DNA of 64,000 bases. It comes from Mesotoga infera. GTDB lineage: Bacteria; Thermotogota; Thermotogae; Petrotogales; Kosmotogaceae. The stretch spans positions 2,852,001 through 2,916,000 of the forward strand of contig NZ_LS974202.1 of the NCBI RefSeq assembly GCF_900157305.1, written 5' to 3'. Under the pieces are notes generated by a model that saw only the letters and a program-made list of their open reading frames with translations, made no database searches and was not told where the DNA came from. Of the stretch, positions 2,932 to 34,582 are shown in pieces. Within the stretch, counting starts at the first letter, position 1. Each line of letters opens with the position of its first letter. The translations under genes and the position numbers were made by a program.

Positions 2932-3026
2932 GACCTGTCACGGCGGGATTCAAGAGCCATAAGGACTGTCATCCAGTGTTGCTCCTCCTATATGTGATCC
3001 CGTTCTCCCCCCTTTCGAAGGATGAT

Positions 3027-3094
3027 CGAGTAGGAGAGGGGCGGAGCCCCTCGTCCTCTCACAGAACCGTGCGTACGGGCCTCGTACACGGCTC
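3027..3094 (-). ncRNA. group II intron domains V and VI, copy 1
   Basis: Domain V runs from 3094 to 3064 with the catalytic AGC triad in AGCCGT. Domain VI follows as a long hairpin with arms GAGGGGC and GCCCCTC. Domain VI carries the branch-point adenosine in typical introns; its exact position is not assigned here. Confidence 0.8.
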
Positions 3095-4376
3095 ATGGAT
3101 CGAGTATCGGATACTTCGACAGGGGATGATAGTACGATGTCATATCGAATAAGTTCATCTCTTCAAAGAACCTGTTGGGAATGGCGTAATTGACTGCTTT
3201 TGTGTGAGAAGAGCGCCATTTGTTCATTCTCAAATTGACTTTCTCTTCCCATCCAGCCCTTCTAAGGACTCTGTTCAGTTTCTTTGTGCTCTTCCACTGG
3301 TGTAGTATGATGGCTCTAAGCCTTCTCCTTATCCAGCTCAAAAGCCCTCTCAAGGTAGATTGTAAGTCTACTATCCTGAAATAGCTGGCAAATCCTCTCA
3401 ACAGTGGATTTAGCTCTTTCACTATTTCCTTTACCGGTGTGCTCTGGTTCCTTCTTGTAAGTCCCTTGACCTTTCCCTTGAACCTTTTCAATCTGGATTT
3501 CTCTATCCCAACTCTCTCGCCTTTTATTTCGAAGCCAAGAAAGTGAAAGCCCTCCTCCAGTGTTGTGATTCTCGTCTTGTTTCTGTTGACCTTGAGCTTC
3601 ATGTCAATCTCCAGTATGTTGATCGCGATTGCCAGAAACTCTCGGGCTTCTTCCTGGGTTTTCGAGAAGATTAATATGTCGTCTGCATATCTGACTATCC
3701 TTATTCCTCTGGCTTTCATCTTCTGGTCGAACTCGTCCAGGTAGATGTTCGCCAGCAGGGGACTTATTACACTACCCTGTGGACTGCCAGTTTCTGTTGC
3801 CTTCCAGACTCCATCTTCCATTACTCCGCTCTTCAGCATTGCGCGTATGAGTTTGAGTATCTTTCCATCACTCACTCTCTCTGCTACGGAGTCTATTATC
3901 TTCTCATGATCCAGAGTGTCGAAACATTTGCTCAGGTCAAGTTCCACTACATTGCACAGACCGTATTTGGATGCAAAAGCTTTCGCCTTCTCCACCGCCT
4001 GCCAGGCATTTCTTCCCTTTCTGTAACCGTAACTGGAGGGATGGAATCTTTCCTCGAATATAGGTTCCAGTATCTCCTTGAGAGATTGTTGTACCACCCT
4101 GTCTCTCACAGCAGGTATTCCCAATTGCCTTGTTTTACCATCTGCTTTTGGGATTTCTACTCTCCTGAGTGGCATGGGCATGTACTCACCGCTCTTGATT
4201 TCTTCGGATAATCTCTCGATTTCTTCGAGGAGTTTCTCCCCGAATGATTTTACGGTTACTCCGTCTATCCCAGGAGCTCCTCTGTTGGAGTTTACCCTGT
4301 GATAGGCTTTCAATAGGTTCTTCTTCGAATAGACTTTGTCGATTAGACTGTAATACTTCATCTCTTTCTCCTGCAT
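3093..4376 (-). CDS. ltrA: group II intron reverse transcriptase/maturase, copy 1
   Basis: Intron-encoded protein that helps the intron RNA fold and splice and copies it into DNA. Reverse-transcriptase blocks are visible: GAPGIDGV, RLGIP-type RQLGIP, SSYGYRKGR, the catalytic YADD and the GSPQGSVISPLLANIYL segment, followed by a maturase domain (RGFASYFR, WIRRRLR). No HNH endonuclease domain follows, which fits class C-like introns that use other DNA ends as primers. ATG 4376 is preferred because GGAAGGG lies 5 bases upstream; an in-frame TTG at 4418 would add 14 residues. The stop codon touches the first bases of domain V. Confidence 0.92.
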   Translation of the reverse strand: MQEKEMKYYSLIDKVYSKKNLLKAYHRVNSNRGAPGIDGVTVKSFGEKLLEEIERLSEEIKSGEYMPMPLRRVEIPKADGKTRQLGIPAVRDRVVQQSLKEILEPIFEERFHPSSYGYRKGRNAWQAVEKAKAFASKYGLCNVVELDLSKCFDTLDHEKIIDSVAERVSDGKILKLIRAMLKSGVMEDGVWKATETGSPQGSVISPLLANIYLDEFDQKMKARGIRIVRYADDILIFSKTQEEAREFLAIAINILEIDMKLKVNRNKTRITTLEEGFHFLGFEIKGERVGIEKSRLKRFKGKVKGLTRRNQSTPVKEIVKELNPLLRGFASYFRIVDLQSTLRGLLSWIRRRLRAIILHQWKSTKKLNRVLRRAGWEEKVNLRMNKWRSSHTKAVNYAIPNRFFEEMNLFDMTSYYHPLSKYPILDP

Positions 4377-4959
4377 GCTCCCTTCCAACAGCTCCAGCCT
4401 CAGATATTGTTGCGACAATTAATGACTGGCTTCTCTACCCTCCCGGGAATATGTACCTTGTCTTTAACTGTCTGACCTAAGTCTCTTCACTGTCTTCCGA
4501 TCACATTTCTTCGATCCTTCTCCCCTTCGCAAGTGATGGAGCCTTTCGACCTCCTCATCACCCCCTTGGCTTATAGCCAAGGTCCCTTCTCCTTTCGGAG
4601 AGGTTCTTCACTACTACGGGTTCATCTGCCATCCTCCTGAGCTTTCCCTTAACTTGGATCTCCTCCTTGCTAACGGTTACCCCTTTCGGACTCATGAGGA
4701 CTTCCCCGGGTAAGATACACCACTTTCATCCGAATCCTGCCATCCGAACCTTTACAGCTGGAGTCAGGGCTTTCCCTTATCTCGCAGGGTTACCCTCTGT
4801 AACGGCCATCTCTGGTTCACTTTCGTTCAGTTCCGGACTTTGCCTCGGGCTTCCTTCAGATTCACCGTTACCAGTGACACCCTTGCCTCTGGCTAATGCT
4901 TCTTTGACTCCCCACATTCGGGTCTTTCACCCTATAGTTGTGTACCATGCCGGGCGCAC

Positions 4960-5155: not shown

Positions 5156-5157
5156 AT

Positions 5158-5225
5158 CGAGTAGGAGAGGGGCGGAGCCCCTCGTCCTCTCACAGAACCG
5201 TGCGTACGGGCCTCGTACACGGCTC
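5158..5225 (-). ncRNA. group II intron domains V and VI, copy 2
   Basis: Same sequence as in copy 1: domain V at 5225-5195 with AGCCGT and ACGGTTC arms, and a GC-rich domain VI hairpin down to the 3' splice site. Confidence 0.8.
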
Positions 5226-6507
5226 ATGGATCGAGTATCGGATACTTCGACAGGGGATGATAGTACGATGTCATATCGAATAAGTTCATCTCTTCAAAGA
5301 ACCTGTTGGGAATGGCGTAATTGACTGCTTTTGTGTGAGAAGAGCGCCATTTGTTCATTCTCAAATTGACTTTCTCTTCCCATCCAGCCCTTCTAAGGAC
5401 TCTGTTCAGTTTCTTTGTGCTCTTCCACTGGTGTAGTATGATGGCTCTAAGCCTTCTCCTTATCCAGCTCAAAAGCCCTCTCAAGGTAGATTGTAAGTCT
5501 ACTATCCTGAAATAGCTGGCAAATCCTCTCAACAGTGGATTTAGCTCTTTCACTATTTCCTTTACCGGTGTGCTCTGGTTCCTTCTTGTAAGTCCCTTGA
5601 CCTTTCCCTTGAACCTTTTCAATCTGGATTTCTCTATCCCAACTCTCTCGCCTTTTATTTCGAAGCCAAGAAAGTGAAAGCCCTCCTCCAGTGTTGTGAT
5701 TCTCGTCTTGTTTCTGTTGACCTTGAGCTTCATGTCAATCTCCAGTATGTTGATCGCGATTGCCAGAAACTCTCGGGCTTCTTCCTGGGTTTTCGAGAAG
5801 ATTAATATGTCGTCTGCATATCTGACTATCCTTATTCCTCTGGCTTTCATCTTCTGGTCGAACTCGTCCAGGTAGATGTTCGCCAGCAGGGGACTTATTA
5901 CACTACCCTGTGGACTGCCAGTTTCTGTTGCCTTCCAGACTCCATCTTCCATTACTCCGCTCTTCAGCATTGCGCGTATGAGTTTGAGTATCTTTCCATC
6001 ACTCACTCTCTCTGCTACGGAGTCTATTATCTTCTCATGATCCAGAGTGTCGAAACATTTGCTCAGGTCAAGTTCCACTACATTGCACAGACCGTATTTG
6101 GATGCAAAAGCTTTCGCCTTCTCCACCGCCTGCCAGGCATTTCTTCCCTTTCTGTAACCGTAACTGGAGGGATGGAATCTTTCCTCGAATATAGGTTCCA
6201 GTATCTCCTTGAGAGATTGTTGTACCACCCTGTCTCTCACAGCAGGTATTCCCAATTGCCTTGTTTTACCATCTGCTTTTGGGATTTCTACTCTCCTGAG
6301 TGGCATGGGCATGTACTCACCGCTCTTGATTTCTTCGGATAATCTCTCGATTTCTTCAAGGAGTTTCTCCCCGAATGATTTTACGGTTACTCCGTCTATC
6401 CCAGGAGCTCCTCTGTTGGAGTTTACCCTGTGATAGGCTTTCAATAGGTTCTTCTTCGAATAGACTTTGTCGATTAGACTGTAATACTTCATCTCTTTCT
6501 CCTGCAT
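5224..6507 (-). CDS. ltrA: group II intron reverse transcriptase/maturase, copy 2
   Basis: The protein is identical to copy 1 as far as I can compare; the one base change seen inside the coding region (near 6358) is silent. It keeps YADD, the GSPQGSVISPLL block and the maturase domain, so both introns should encode an active protein. ATG 6507 follows GGAAGGG at 5 bases; TTG 6549 is the longer alternative. An intact reading frame in both copies argues for recent movement or gene conversion. Confidence 0.92.
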   Translation of the reverse strand: MQEKEMKYYSLIDKVYSKKNLLKAYHRVNSNRGAPGIDGVTVKSFGEKLLEEIERLSEEIKSGEYMPMPLRRVEIPKADGKTRQLGIPAVRDRVVQQSLKEILEPIFEERFHPSSYGYRKGRNAWQAVEKAKAFASKYGLCNVVELDLSKCFDTLDHEKIIDSVAERVSDGKILKLIRAMLKSGVMEDGVWKATETGSPQGSVISPLLANIYLDEFDQKMKARGIRIVRYADDILIFSKTQEEAREFLAIAINILEIDMKLKVNRNKTRITTLEEGFHFLGFEIKGERVGIEKSRLKRFKGKVKGLTRRNQSTPVKEIVKELNPLLRGFASYFRIVDLQSTLRGLLSWIRRRLRAIILHQWKSTKKLNRVLRRAGWEEKVNLRMNKWRSSHTKAVNYAIPNRFFEEMNLFDMTSYYHPLSKYPILDP

Positions 6508-7090
6508 GCTCCCTTCCAACAGCTCCAGCCTCAGATATTGTTGCGACAATTAATGACTGGCTTCTCTACCCTTTCGGGAATGTGTACCTTGTCTTTAACT
6601 GTCCAATCTGAATCTCTTCACTGTCTTCCGATCACATTTCTTCGATCCTTCTCCCCTTCGCAAGTGATGGAGCCTTTCGACCTCCTCATCACCCCCTTGG
6701 CTTATAGCCAAGGTCCCTTCTCCTTTCGGAGAGGTTCTTCACTACTACGGGTTCATCTGCCATCCTCCTGAGCTTTCCCTTAACTTGGATCTCCTCCTTG
6801 CTAACGGTTACCCCTTTCGGACTCATGAGGACTTCCCCGGGTAAGATACACCACTTTCATCCGAATCCTGCCATCCGAACCTTTACAGCTGGAGTCAGGG
6901 CTTTCCCTTATCTCGCAGGGTTACCCTCTGTAACGGCCATCTCTGGTTCACTTTCGTTCAGTTCCGGACTTTGCCTCGGGCTTCCTTCAGATTCACCGTT
7001 ACCAGTGACACCCTTGCCTCTGGCTAATGCTTCTTTGACTCCCCACATTCGGGTCTTTCACCCTATAGTTGTGTACCATGCCGGGCGCAC

Positions 7091-29682: not shown

Positions 29683-31056
29683 ATGGAGTTTTTTGCGAAA
29701 GAAGAGACCGGTAAAGATTTGCTATTGAAGTCACTCGAGAACAAAACCTTACCCCGCGCGCCGTGGGTCCCCTTCGCAGGCGTGCATGCCGGTAAACTCA
29801 AAGGCTATACCGCCAAAGAGGTCCTTAACGACGTCGATAAACTGGTTCAATCTTTACTTGAAGTCAACAGACTCTACAGACCTGACGGCCAGCCGGTGGT
29901 TTTCGATCTCCAGCTGGAAGCGGAAGCGCTGGGTTGCGATCTGGTCTGGAGCGACGTCAATCCTCCTTCGGTCAGCGGCCATCCCTTGAAGAAAAGCCGG
30001 GAAATACCGGGCCTTCTCCCGGACGAAAGTTCGGGGAGGATTCCTCTGGTGCTGGACGCCATGAGAGAGATGAAGAGGGAGGTAGGCCATCACACCGCCC
30101 TGTTCGGGCTTGTTTGTGGTCCTTTGACGCTCGCTTCGCATCTGCGTGGAGCGGATTTCTTCATGGACATCATTGAAGAGCCGCAGTACGCTCAGGACCT
30201 GCTCTCATATACCAGCGAAGTTTGCGAGCGCATGGCCGGGATGTACATCGAGGCCGGAATGGACATCGTCGCCTTCGTCGATCCCATGGTTTCGCAGATC
30301 TCTCCACGTCATTTTAAAAGATACCTGAGCGGCCCCTTTTCTGGGCTTTTCAATTTTGTGAGGCAGAACGGGGCGAAGAGTTCTTTCTTCGTATGCGGAG
30401 ACGCCACGAAGAACATCGAAGTGATGTGCCAGACCAGGCCGGATTCCTTATTCGTAGATGAGAACATCGATCTGGAGAGCGCGAAGAAAATCACCGATAG
30501 TTACGGGGTGGTTATAGGTGGCAACATCCCCCTTACGACCACGATGCTTTACGGAAACCAGAAGGATAACATGAAGTACGTGATAGAGCTTTTGGAGAGA
30601 CTGGGAACCAGGAACTACATAGTGGCTCCGGGATGCGACATGCCATACAATGTGCCTGTCGAAAACGGCATCGCCATACAACAGGCAATAAGGGACGTCG
30701 AAAGGGTGAAAGCGATTCTCAAAGACTACGAAGCTGAGGAGGAGGAAGTAGAGATCGACCTCCCCGATTACGAACATCTCGAAAAGCCGCTTATCGAGGT
30801 CTTCACACTGGATTCGGACACCTGCGCCGCCTGCACTTACATGATGAGCGTAGCGAAGCTCGCGCTCGAAGAGTTCAAAGACAGAGTGGACGTTGTGGAA
30901 TACAAATTCACGGTTCGCGAAAACATTCAGAGAATAAAGAAGATGGGGGTGAAGAACCTCCCTTCCATCTATATCAACGGGCGGTTGAAGTACTCATCTA
31001 TAATTCCTGACAGGAGGGAATTCTTCAGTGAAATTAAAAAAATCCTCAGTTCCTGA
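29683..31056 (+). CDS. uroporphyrinogen decarboxylase-fold methyltransferase fused to a thioredoxin-like domain
   Basis: 457 residues. Residues 1 to about 350 form a URO-D/MtaA-type barrel. FVCGDATKNI and APGCDMPYNVP have the Cys that in MtaA-like enzymes bind zinc for corrinoid or thiol methyl transfer. After an acidic linker (EAEEEEVEID) comes a thioredoxin-like domain of about 85 residues with a TCAAC redox motif and a cis-Pro in NLPSIY. A haem role is unlikely given these Cys. The ribosome site is GGGAGG. The CobW-type gene overlaps by 29 bases. No corrinoid protein gene is nearby, so the methyl donor is unknown. Confidence 0.8.
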   Translation: MEFFAKEETGKDLLLKSLENKTLPRAPWVPFAGVHAGKLKGYTAKEVLNDVDKLVQSLLEVNRLYRPDGQPVVFDLQLEAEALGCDLVWSDVNPPSVSGHPLKKSREIPGLLPDESSGRIPLVLDAMREMKREVGHHTALFGLVCGPLTLASHLRGADFFMDIIEEPQYAQDLLSYTSEVCERMAGMYIEAGMDIVAFVDPMVSQISPRHFKRYLSGPFSGLFNFVRQNGAKSSFFVCGDATKNIEVMCQTRPDSLFVDENIDLESAKKITDSYGVVIGGNIPLTTTMLYGNQKDNMKYVIELLERLGTRNYIVAPGCDMPYNVPVENGIAIQQAIRDVERVKAILKDYEAEEEEVEIDLPDYEHLEKPLIEVFTLDSDTCAACTYMMSVAKLALEEFKDRVDVVEYKFTVRENIQRIKKMGVKNLPSIYINGRLKYSSIIPDRREFFSEIKKILSS

Positions 31057-31939
31057 GCTGGTTCTTGTAACGGGTTTTCTTGGGTCGGGAAAGACTACTT
31101 TTCTTAAAGTCCTGATGTCGCAGTACCACGATGCCCTTAAAGGCGTCATAATAAACGACTTCGGAAAGGTGGCTATCGACGGATCGCTCTTGGATAAAGA
31201 GGGAATCTTCAAAGAAGAAATCTCCGGAGGCTCGATTTTCTGCACCTGCAGGGAGAACGAGTTTGTGGAAGCTCTCAAGTGCATGATCAAAGAGGGGCCG
31301 GATATCATCTTTGTGGAGACTTCTGGCATGTCCGACCCGTCCGGTATCGAAAAGCTCCTTCCGATCGCCGGAAAGGTCGAGTTCGTCTGTGGCTACTGCG
31401 TGGTGGATGCTTCAAGATTCCTGGCCCTCAGCGATATCTTCTCGGTGGTCGAGAAACAGGTCGCCTCGTCCGACGTCGTGATAATCAACAAAGTGGACAG
31501 GGTAAGTGTGGGAGAACTGGAGAGAATAAAACAGGAAATATCCACGATAGGGAATATGCCTCAATACGAGGCCAGGTACGGAGTGACCAGGAAGCCCGTT
31601 CCCTTCTTCAAAAGGAAAAAGGAAGTGGCGGAATCGGAGAACAGCCCCAATAACCGGCCAAAATCCCTCCTTATAGAATGGGAAGGCGAAGTTACCATCG
31701 AGAAGTTGAGGGACTTTGTAGAAGAGATCCTCGGTTCTGCTTTGAGAGTGAAGGGCTTTTGCAGAACCGAATCCGGTCTCGTTCTCGTGAACGGTGTGGG
31801 CTCGTCGGTGGAGATAACACTGGCCGATAACGCAAAGGCAACGGGGCTTTCGATCATATCCGAGCGGAACAAACCGGTTTTGAAGACCATAAAAGACGCC
31901 TGGGAGAGGCTCTTCAACACCGAAATAAAAATCACCTGA
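31028..31939 (+). CDS. CobW/COG0523-family G3E GTPase
   Basis: 303 residues with Walker A GFLGSGKTT at 17-25, the metal-site region GGSIFCTCRENE (CTC in place of the common CxCC), Walker B-like IIFVETSGMSDP and the guanine motif NKVD. Such proteins insert metals (Zn, Co) or cobalamin into partners. GTG 31028 has GGAGGG upstream and lies inside the end of the URO-D fusion gene. Tight coupling suggests it loads the metal or corrinoid of that enzyme, which is inference. Confidence 0.88.
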   Translation: MKLKKSSVPELVLVTGFLGSGKTTFLKVLMSQYHDALKGVIINDFGKVAIDGSLLDKEGIFKEEISGGSIFCTCRENEFVEALKCMIKEGPDIIFVETSGMSDPSGIEKLLPIAGKVEFVCGYCVVDASRFLALSDIFSVVEKQVASSDVVIINKVDRVSVGELERIKQEISTIGNMPQYEARYGVTRKPVPFFKRKKEVAESENSPNNRPKSLLIEWEGEVTIEKLRDFVEEILGSALRVKGFCRTESGLVLVNGVGSSVEITLADNAKATGLSIISERNKPVLKTIKDAWERLFNTEIKIT

Positions 31940-31984
31940 TGCATTGTTTACAGTAAGTTTGCATTGTCGAAAGCAGCCGTGAGT

Positions 31985-31990
31985 TATAAT
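31985..31990 (+). promoter_or_regulatory. -10 box of the metQNI leader
   Basis: TATAAT at 31985-31990. TTGTCG at 31964-31969 is the only nearby -35-like sequence, with a short 15-base spacer. Transcription would begin near 31997, about 22 bases before the leader peptide start. Confidence 0.5.
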
Positions 31991-32018
31991 CTCTCAAACG
32001 AACTGTCGGGGGAAACCT

Positions 32019-32096
32019 ATGGATTTTAAAGCAGTCGGCGGGAAGAAAATATCTATGATGATGTACGGCAACGCCCTTGTTTCTTCGGGTGCTTAG
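32019..32096 (+). CDS. methionine leader peptide (25 aa) of the metQNI attenuator
   Basis: ATG 32019 has GGGGG 6 bases upstream (32008-32012) and opens a 25-codon frame ending in TAG at 32094. Codons 13-15 (32055-32063) are three ATG in a row, in front of an intrinsic terminator and the genes of a methionine-type ABC transporter. A run of codons for the amino acid controlled by the operon is the mark of leader-peptide attenuation, as in trp and his operons. The peptide has no other recognisable feature. Confidence 0.72.
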   Translation: MDFKAVGGKKISMMMYGNALVSSGA

Positions 32097-32148
32097 CTGT
32101 ACCTGGAAAAATAGAAACGGGGCGTCTCAAAAGAGACGCCCTTTTTTT
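32071..32148 (+). promoter_or_regulatory. transcription attenuator: antiterminator and terminator before metQ
   Basis: The terminator is GGGCGTCTC (32120-32128), loop AAAA, GAGACGCCC (32133-32141) and seven T. Its left arm can instead pair with the end of the leader peptide frame: ACGCCC (32071-32076) with GGGCGT (32120-32125), and GTTTC (32079-32083) with GAAAC (32114-32118). That gives an 11-pair antiterminator separated by a small internal loop. A third alternative, GAAGAAA (32042-32048) with TTTCTTC (32080-32086), would block the antiterminator. A ribosome waiting at the Met codons would cover 32042-32048 but leave 32071-32083 free, so low charged Met-tRNA would allow read-through. Confidence 0.72.
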
Positions 32149-32166
32149 ATATCGGGAGGGATTTGT

Positions 32167-32946
32167 ATGAAGAAACTGCTGCTGGTATTGGTTCTACTGG
32201 GTTTAGTTTTGGCCTTCGGGGCGGAAAAGATCAAAGTCGGGGCGACTCCCGTTCCTCACGCAGAGATACTGGAGATAGTGAAAGGGGATCTGGCGGCCCT
32301 CGGGTACGAGCTCGAGATAGTCGTGTTCAACGACTACGTGCTTCCGAACATAGCGCTCTCTACGGGGGAGCTGAGCGCCAATTACTTCCAGCACGTGCCG
32401 TACCTGGTCTCCTTCACTACCCAGAGGGGAATCAAGGGACTGATATCCGTTAAAGCGATTCACGTTGAGCCAATGGGCTTCTTTCTGAAGAAACCTCTGG
32501 AGAGCCTGGAGGCGGGCGACAAGATCGCCATTCCGAATGACCCCACCAACGAGGGGCGCGCGCTGATACTTCTCCACAACAACGGTTTGATTCAACTTAA
32601 AGACCCCACAAAGCTGGAATCTACGGTGCGCGACATCGAGAGCAACCCGAGAAAACTCGATTTTGTCGAAATCGAAGCCGGCTTCATTCCAAGGGTTTAC
32701 ACTGATGACAAAACCGTGGTTGGCGCCGTGATCAACACGAACTACGCCTTGACGATTAACCTCAACGCGACCAAAGACGCCGAATTCATCGAAGGTGCTG
32801 AATCCCCGTACGCAAACATCATAACGATCCGCGAGGCCGATAAAGACAAGGACTGGGTCAAGGCGCTCGTGAGCGTGTTGACCACGGAGAAAGTGAGAAA
32901 CTTCATCAACGAGAAGTACGGCGGAGCGGTAGTGCCGGTATTCTGA
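32167..32946 (+). CDS. metQ: methionine-type ABC transporter substrate-binding protein
   Basis: Captures methionine (or a related compound) outside the membrane for MetN/MetI. 260 residues with signal peptide MKKLLLVLVLLGLVLAFG and the NlpA/MetQ phrases KVGATPVPHAEIL, NYFQHVPYL and AIPNDPTNEGRALILL. It lacks the lipobox Cys of most MetQ proteins, so it should be free or bound through its signal segment. GGGAGGG precedes ATG 32167. It follows the attenuator terminator by about 19 bases and starts the metQNI operon. Confidence 0.93.
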   Translation: MKKLLLVLVLLGLVLAFGAEKIKVGATPVPHAEILEIVKGDLAALGYELEIVVFNDYVLPNIALSTGELSANYFQHVPYLVSFTTQRGIKGLISVKAIHVEPMGFFLKKPLESLEAGDKIAIPNDPTNEGRALILLHNNGLIQLKDPTKLESTVRDIESNPRKLDFVEIEAGFIPRVYTDDKTVVGAVINTNYALTINLNATKDAEFIEGAESPYANIITIREADKDKDWVKALVSVLTTEKVRNFINEKYGGAVVPVF

Positions 32947-32960
32947 GAGGGGAAGTAGCG

Positions 32961-33950
32961 TTGATCCTGGCAGTCAAAAACCTGAACCTTTCTTTCGAAG
33001 ACAGGACCGGGAGAAGAAAGATCCTGGACGATGTGAGCTTTTCGGTGGAAGAAGGCCAGATCGTCGGCATAGTCGGACTTTCCGGGGCGGGGAAAACTTC
33101 TCTGCTCCGGACGCTCAACCTTCTTCAGCCGGTTGACAGCGGCGAGATATTCTTCGATGGAAAGAACATAGTCAATTTGAAAGATGATGAGATAAGAAAG
33201 ATGCGCAAGAAGATCGGCGTCGTTTTCCAGAGCTTCAACCTCTTCAGAAACCGGACGGTATCGCAGAACATAGCCTTCCCCCTGAAAATACAGGGGCTGA
33301 CAGGCAGGGAAGTGAAAGAGAAGGTCGAAAAGATCTCCGGCGAGCTCGGCCTCGATCACAGGATACAGGCCTACCCCTCTCAACTGTCCGGAGGAGAGCA
33401 GCAGAGGGCCGCAATAGCCAGGGCGCTAGTCATGGATCCAAAGATGATACTTCTGGATGAACCGACCTCGGCCCTCGATCCCAAGACAACCGGCAGGTTA
33501 CTGGATCTGGTCGTTGAACTCAACCAAAAGCATAGAATCACCTTTGTCGTAGTTACACACGACATGGATGTGATAAAAAGAACCTGCGATAAAGTCGCCT
33601 ACCTCGAAAACGGCAGATTGAAGTTCTTCGGACCGGCCCACGAATTCTTCGTGAAAGTCGAAAAAAACGAAGTCAGGGATTTTGGAACACCGCTCGAACT
33701 GGATAGAAAAGCGGTAGAACATAAAGGCAAGATAATACGGGTCCTCTTCTGGGGGAAGAAGACGCACGAAGCGGTCATGTGGAAAGTCGCCAGGGAACTT
33801 GATGTCTCGGTCAACATACTGTACGGCAAAATCGAAGAATTGAAGCACGGGCCCTTCGGTGCTATGATAATCGGTATTGAGGGTGAACAGCAGGACCTGT
33901 TCATCCAGCGCCTCAGGGAGTCGGTCTACTCGCTAGAGGAGGTTGAATAA
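32961..33950 (+). CDS. metN: methionine-type ABC transporter ATP-binding protein
   Basis: Energises uptake with MetQ and MetI. 329 residues: Walker A GLSGAGKTS, Q-loop FQSFNLF, signature LSGGEQQR, Walker B MILLDEPTSALD and the His of VVTHDMD. The last 80 residues form the NIL domain (IIRVLFWGKK...) that senses methionine and shuts the transporter off in known MetNI systems. TTG start with GAGAGGGGAAG upstream. Its stop shares one base with the metI start. Confidence 0.95.
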   Translation: MILAVKNLNLSFEDRTGRRKILDDVSFSVEEGQIVGIVGLSGAGKTSLLRTLNLLQPVDSGEIFFDGKNIVNLKDDEIRKMRKKIGVVFQSFNLFRNRTVSQNIAFPLKIQGLTGREVKEKVEKISGELGLDHRIQAYPSQLSGGEQQRAAIARALVMDPKMILLDEPTSALDPKTTGRLLDLVVELNQKHRITFVVVTHDMDVIKRTCDKVAYLENGRLKFFGPAHEFFVKVEKNEVRDFGTPLELDRKAVEHKGKIIRVLFWGKKTHEAVMWKVARELDVSVNILYGKIEELKHGPFGAMIIGIEGEQQDLFIQRLRESVYSLEEVE

Positions 33951-34582
33951 TGGCCGGTGAGATACTGAAAGCCACGCTTGAGACACTCTATATGGTTCTG
34001 GTCTCCGGTTTTCTCGCGACTCTCTTTGGAATACCCCTCGGAGTGGTTCTCTTCCTGCTCTCGAGATCCAAGAAGTGGCGGAGACTCTACATAGTGTTCG
34101 ATCTGTTTGTTAACGTCTTCCGCTCAATTCCCTTCATAATACTGGTTCTGCTTTTGATTCCCGTCACGAAAAACGTCATGGGTACAATCATAGGGCCGAA
34201 CGCCGCGATCTTCAACCTAACGATAGCCGCTATCCCTTTCATGGCAAGGCTTTCAGAGAACTCCTTCAACGGAGTTCCACGCGGGATTATAGATTCTTCC
34301 GATTCCATGGGACTCAACAGATCGCAGTTTATATTCAGAGTTCTGATTCCCGAAACGCTACCAGAGCAAATAGGAAATATCACCGTGCTTCTGATCAACC
34401 TCGTGACCTACACCGCAATAGCGGGAGCCGTCGGAGCTGGCGGTCTTGGACAGCTGGCCATAAACTACGGTTACTACAGGTTCCAGTGGGACGTGGTACT
34501 GTACGCGGTAATAGTACTGGTGAGCATAAGTCAGGTACTGCAATTCACTGGGGGAAGACTCTCCAGACTATTGAGGAGATGA
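33950..34582 (+). CDS. metI: methionine-type ABC transporter permease
   Basis: 210 residues with five hydrophobic segments and the ATPase-contact loop (DSSDSMGLNRSQFIFRVLIPE). GAVGAGGLGQLAINYGYYRF is typical of MetI. It completes metQNI and is followed by a modest terminator. Confidence 0.95.
   Translation: MAGEILKATLETLYMVLVSGFLATLFGIPLGVVLFLLSRSKKWRRLYIVFDLFVNVFRSIPFIILVLLLIPVTKNVMGTIIGPNAAIFNLTIAAIPFMARLSENSFNGVPRGIIDSSDSMGLNRSQFIFRVLIPETLPEQIGNITVLLINLVTYTAIAGAVGAGGLGQLAINYGYYRFQWDVVLYAVIVLVSISQVLQFTGGRLSRLLRR

Follow-up and report, generated by a model that had tools for sequence, protein, structure and literature searches.

The leader in front of the metQNI operon of Mesotoga infera is very probably a ribosome-mediated transcription attenuator of the trp/his type, predicted from its sequence to sense the charging of elongator tRNA-Met. 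The original prediction had proposed such a layout for methionine in front of metQNI, and the conservation of the leader in relatives, its RNA folds and the identities of the downstream genes all support it. The genome consists of one contig (2.97 Mb) carrying the 64-kb stretch of DNA analysed here, which we call the window; close relatives in public records belong to Mesotoga and to other Kosmotogaceae/Kosmotogales in the phylum Thermotogota.

Anatomy and predicted folds of the metQNI leader

The leader occupies the gap between a cobW-like gene, ending at 31939, and metQ, starting at 32167. The features of the leader and of the operon are as follows.

31959-31964, + strand: weak -35 candidate TTGCAT (sequence), with a long spacer to TATAAT
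31985-31990, + strand: TATAAT, probable -10 element of the leader promoter (sequence), in the same place in Mesotoga relatives
32019-32096, + strand: predicted leader peptide ORF MDFKAVGGKKISMMMYGNALVSSGA, 25 codons, stop TAG, frame kept in relatives
32055-32063, + strand: putative sensing codons ATG ATG ATG (three Met), with in-frame Met runs in every Thermotogota leader found
32063-32102, + strand: protector hairpin (fold), outer stem GTACGGC (32063-32069) with GCTGTAC (32096-32102)
32072-32076 with 32087-32091, + strand: inner stem of the protector hairpin (fold), CGCCC with GGGTG
32071-32083, + strand: left arm of the antiterminator, ACGCCCTTGTTTC, pairing with 32114-32125
32114-32125, + strand: right arm of the antiterminator, GAAACGGGGCGT, overlapping the left arm of the terminator
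32119-32148, + strand: intrinsic terminator, hairpin 32119-32142 (GGGGCGTCTC-AAAA-GAGACGCCCT, 10 pairs) plus T run, kept in relatives
32167-32946, + strand: metQ, methionine-binding lipoprotein, first gene of the operon (Pfam Lipoprotein_9, 4e-80)
32961-33950, + strand: metN, ABC ATPase with a C-terminal NIL domain (ABC_tran and NIL domains)
33950-34582, + strand: metI, permease (BPD_transp_1; best NCBIfam match MetI PRK10782, below cut-off)

The 25-codon frame that had been described was present, including its three successive ATG codons. The accompanying claim of a good ribosome site held in part: there is a site about 8-12 nt before the ATG, but it reads GGGGG and is only fair, while relatives carry GAGG or GGAGG in their leaders. 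Further on, 3′ of the leader terminator, comes the ribosome site of metQ itself. A promoter consensus scanner did not report the TATAAT at 31985-31990, so the leader promoter is a putative one.

Folding of the leader, which had been suggested as a check, gave a structure 4.3 SD below dinucleotide shuffles for the whole leader and revealed three mutually exclusive states, namely protector, antiterminator and terminator. The antiterminator duplex has a predicted energy of -20.4 kcal/mol (p = 0.006 against shuffles), and the leader folded up to the 5′ arm of the terminator reaches -28.3 kcal/mol (z = -4.2). The 5′ arm of the protector hairpin (-16.4 kcal/mol, p = 0.017 against shuffles) begins with the final base of the Met codons. 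The terminator, the antiterminator pairing of 32071-32083 with 32114-32125 and a further complementarity of GAAGAAA (32042-32048) with TTTCTTC (32080-32086) were all located where the original prediction had placed them. The role assigned to the last of these, blocking the antiterminator, did not survive the comparison: judged by eye it is poorly kept in relatives, including L004 and L007, and the 32063-32102 hairpin explains the data better. We rejected it as the protector; when no ribosome is present, the antiterminator is probably blocked by the pairing of 32063-32076 with 32087-32102.

When methionine is scarce, the ribosome would stall on one of the Met codons at 32055-32063 and disrupt the protector, leaving 32071-32083 free to pair with 32114-32125; the antiterminator thus formed would block the terminator and metQNI would be transcribed. 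With ample methionine, the ribosome would reach the stop codon at 32094-32096 and cover much of the left arm, allowing the terminator hairpin (32119-32142) to form. An untranslated leader would form the protector and then the terminator, and the operon would be off. Because the footprint of a ribosome extends about 12 nt 3′ of the codon being translated (PMC4833913), a stall on either of the first two Met codons would leave 32071-32083 free or nearly so; a stall on the third would cost it a few bases. Methionine starvation should also limit initiator Met-tRNA and thereby reduce initiation on the leader, favouring the off state. We infer the coupling of transcription and translation, Met-tRNA as the effector and the direction of the response from this anatomy.

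Conservation of the leader across Thermotogota and alternative readings

MetQ was found in 30 of the 103 Thermotogota genomes searched, and a Met leader with a terminator precedes metQ at 19 of these 30 loci. The leaders span three families: that of Mesotoga (including G027 and G032), f4 (G011) and f2 (three genera). It had been proposed that relatives be searched for a kept ATG run and kept stems, and both competing stems and the Met run proved to be retained in the three families despite turnover of nearly all other sequence. The in-frame runs occur as MMMY, MMMC, MNMIMC, MMMMW, MMM(M)W, MMMPW, MCMPW and MVMC, with differing codon spacing. Nine Mesotoga leaders read MMMYGNALVS(S/P)GA or MMMYSNALVSSGA and, being near-identical 3′ of the Met run, are not independent evidence. 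Other members of the same family carry MMMYRNALVFPPGG (L034) and MMMCRPLSVLWGVF (L016), the G011 leader is VMNMIMCTSAPQNSPGV (L015), and the third family has MMM(M)WH (L017, L021, L026 and L035), MMMPWCNRFF (L022) and HMCMPWQPTLF (L030 and L031). The N-terminal halves have no evident similarity between genera, and in relatives this part is rewritten as, for example, MTEETFREKNR, MKMNLDRGKNR or MTLRIVYGESRKE, with the start codon in frame every time. The sole length difference readable base by base among closely related ORFs is a whole-codon insertion in the L003 leader.

We tested 21 Thermotogota leaders, 17 of metQ and four of the paralog described below, and in every one the left arm of the antiterminator starts 2-9 nt past the final Met codon. 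Single-leader p values for the antiterminator ranged from 0.002 to 0.09; with one sequence from each of eight lineages, the combined p against dinucleotide shuffles was about 2e-11 for the duplex and about 2e-10 for the folded antiterminator state. The arms differ completely among lineages and nevertheless pair (ACGCCC/GGGCGT, CGGTCTTCTC/GAGAAGGCCG, GTAACCG/CGGTTAC and GCAACCGA/TCGGTTGC). For the protector the combined p was 3e-5 over eight lineages, the hairpin alone being weak in some of them (L016, p = 0.15; L014, p = 0.12). Its arms are replaced by other complementary ones in relatives, such as GTGGCAT/ATGCCAC or, at L031, CATGGCAA/TTGCCATG, and at L034 it is built from different pairs. 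The terminator has pair-keeping changes in L010, L034, L015 and L016. The elements of a ribosome-mediated attenuator are thus all found: an ORF, a run of Met codons, a terminator, an antiterminator arm 3′ of the sensing codons and a protector.

In a scan of both strands of the window for short Met-run ORFs that have a terminator behind them, the metQ leader was the sole match. Across the M. infera genome, the pattern of ATGATG plus a T run gave seven matches, compared with five in a backwards-read control, and the metQ locus was the only leader among them; this screen of the genome is incomplete because the pattern misses the paralog leader. Elsewhere in the window, on the minus strand between 3025 and 7008, Rfam matches to group II introns form two pairs (4715-4877 with 6846-7008, and 3025-3096 with 5156-5227) whose members have identical scores and lie 2,131 bases apart, apparently marking a tandem duplicated intron.

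The same comparisons bear on other explanations of the leader. A new aptamer riboswitch for methionine or SAM would have the ATG run conserved as RNA sequence and not as codons, and two observations lean that way: ATGATGATGT is nearly invariant within one alignment, and metQ of relatives carries SAM-I riboswitches. Yet the run is broken up elsewhere while staying in frame (ATGAATATGATAATG, ATGTGCATG and ATGGTGATG), a start codon stands in frame in every case, no resemblance to a conserved aptamer core persists from genus to genus and the leader has no Rfam match, all of which makes an aptamer extremely improbable. Nascent-peptide arrest, in which the leader peptide inside the ribosome tunnel would itself detect a ligand such as methionine or SAM, would equally fit a leader ORF with alternative hairpins 3′ of it, the arrangement seen with TnaC-like arrest peptides. 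Such peptides require specific residues at fixed positions, however, and the leader peptide is unconserved between genera beyond its Met codons, so we regard arrest as very improbable.

It is hardly credible that the leader is an ordinary cobW terminator with a short ORF beside it by chance. The terminator does sit in the intergenic region 3′ of cobW, but it ends only about 20 nt before metQ and lies 3′ of the conserved TATAAT, the same layout precedes metQ in relatives with dissimilar upstream sequence, and no other such combination occurs in the window. Attenuation at the Met codons gains further support from the distribution of leaders, since a SAM-I riboswitch was never found together with a Met leader at the loci scanned and a second metQ has a Met leader of its own.

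Other leaders, riboswitches and known attenuation systems

This second metQ is a stand-alone paralog in the M. infera genome (G000:C1:731823-732599; locus L014, 731823-732762, minus strand) with no metN or metI directly 3′ of it. Its leader is a diverged copy, with a TTG start, a peptide ending in ...GMVMCREAPLL and its own antiterminator and terminator, and leaders of this GMVMC type are also present in three other Mesotoga genomes. At nine further Thermotogota loci, in other genera of the third family, metQ is preceded by a SAM-I riboswitch (RF00162), which resembles the metQNI leader in its position and differs from it in binding SAM directly and in not needing translation. The two were never found together at any Met-leader locus scanned, and RF00162 gave no gathering-score match in the window, at the leader loci or in the M. 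infera genome; G054, a genome with a Met leader, carries a SAM-I riboswitch at another place. L033, whose upstream sequence is shorter than 200 nt, has neither element, and the remaining metQ locus (L032) is cut off. HEARO RNA (RF02033) occurs at L018 (3301-3525) and L129 (1838-2062), near the SAM-I-controlled metQ of G035.

No Rfam family matched the leader, the three matches at E values up to 10 being far below their cut-offs, and the T-box (RF00230) gave no gathering-score match there. The covariance models of the Rfam Trp, His, Leu and Thr leader families gave no match at the leader either; it is therefore no member of these families by sequence, though it would work like them.

Outside the phylum, we found Met/Cys-rich leaders, such as MRRFENILSMCMCMCRMLLSRASRLTGCMA, at the Clostridia MetQ loci L071, L072, L076 and L097, with an antiterminator arm 4-5 nt past the last Met codon. 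The antiterminators were significant at L071 (p = 0.004), L072 (p = 0.004) and L076 (p = 0.014) and not at L097 (p = 0.10). In Lachnospiraceae, leaders in which Met and Cys codons alternate (MCMCMC), each with a terminator, occur at these four loci and at L079, L091, L142 and L143; the one at L072 precedes an amino-acid-binding-protein-like gene, and the one at L142 a PLP enzyme, judged by eye to belong to the cystathionine synthase/lyase type. These leaders are possibly joint methionine/cysteine attenuators. The exact Met-Cys-Met-Cys-Met-Cys pattern had four matches in the 397 genomes of the family of G103, of which L144 is apparently due to chance. At five other Clostridia loci (L060, L062, L082, L104 and L113), Met-rich short ORFs such as MTKKNMMMEMGMMGMCMCAPK lie about 1.9-2.2 kb 5′ of metQ, and no significant antiterminator was found at any of them. 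Given the lack of a clear antiterminator, we do not claim these five as attenuators; perhaps another mode of control operates there.

Leader-peptide attenuators for other amino acids are classical. Those described mostly sense Trp, His, Leu, Ile/Val, Thr or Phe and come mostly from Proteobacteria and Actinobacteria; control of methionine genes usually takes other forms. The metQNI leader shares with the trp, his, leu and thr attenuators, mainly of Proteobacteria, a short ORF rich in codons for the controlled amino acid, mutually exclusive protector, antiterminator and terminator structures and a logic based on stalling. It differs from them in sensing methionine, if our reading is correct, in controlling a transporter operon, in belonging to Thermotogota and in having no sequence homology to them. 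Our literature search for methionine leader peptides, outside which lay Lopatovskaya et al. 2010, reportedly a survey of attenuation, found one precedent, metL of Streptomyces lividans. This putative leader was placed before metNIQ of strain TK24 by an RNA-seq reannotation, and it has the same target operon as the Thermotogota leader and likewise has Met codons near the end of its peptide (MSTTSDRTPATEATTTPGARCMCRRMCAF) (PMC8079986). It comes from a single genome, has a leaderless start and, according to its authors, is missing a typical terminator, and no comparative support appears in the accessible part of that report (PMC8079986); the metQNI leader, in contrast, has a full terminator and antiterminator kept in many genomes. 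The expectation that a methionine attenuator would be unusual was thus largely borne out, such control being nearly undocumented, with metL of S. lividans as the one precedent found (PMC8079986).

A 2005 survey of Actinobacteria found no methionine RNA element (PMC1262725), and a 43-family survey of RNA regulons, with 11 Thermotogales genomes in its scope, covered known Rfam families only, with no Met leader among them (PMC3766115). The element described in a Proteobacteria methionine survey, before beta-proteobacterial metX/metZ, consists of conserved RNA regions with no leader peptide and is therefore different (PMC4239095). The methionine-specific T-box leaders named for Lactobacillales (PMC3766115) answer to tRNA charging and control methionine genes, as the metQNI leader would, but they have no leader peptide and bind uncharged tRNA themselves. 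Also comparable is uORFC-8-2 before cysS of Rhodobacterales, a leader-peptide attenuator for a sulphur amino acid that differs in its cysteine codons, its cysS target and its place in Alphaproteobacteria (PMC8632094). By these comparisons the class of mechanism is known, and conservation across the phylum here backs a methionine specificity that is close to undocumented.

Methionine supply and the meaning of the leader

The best NCBIfam matches of metQ (MetQ/NlpA) and metN (ABC_MetN), like that of metI, fall short of their curated cut-offs; the case for methionine specificity therefore comes from the protein family, the gene order and the leader itself; solved relatives of the metQ product include MetQ structures such as 4yah (2e-50). 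Searches of the M. infera genome for PF01717 (MetE-type synthase) and PF02574 (S-methyl_trans, MetH-type homocysteine methyltransferase) gave no match, whereas both were found by the same searches in the Thermotoga maritima control. Since the genome has no recognisable MetE- or MetH-type domains, M. infera is likely to depend on methionine uptake. It does have PLP enzymes of Cys/Met metabolism. Just 5′ of the leader, a gene for an MtaA/CmuA-type corrinoid methyltransferase with a C-terminal thioredoxin-like domain (29683-31056) is overlapped by the cobW-like gene (31028-31939).

Methionine is an awkward case for attenuation, every leader needing Met-tRNA to start, and a complete Met attenuator kept throughout a phylum suggests that Met-tRNA charging is usable as a signal in bacteria. 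On balance, we favour the view that attenuation by Met, and Met/Cys, leader peptides is a widespread uncatalogued class that has arisen or spread in Thermotogota and Clostridia, and perhaps Actinobacteria, that swaps with SAM-I before the same transporter gene and that senses the charging of elongator tRNA-Met separately from the initiator. Relatives would then form natural pairs of lineages, one reading metQ by Met-tRNA through a leader peptide and the other by SAM through a riboswitch, and such pairs would allow a direct test of what each signal is good for.
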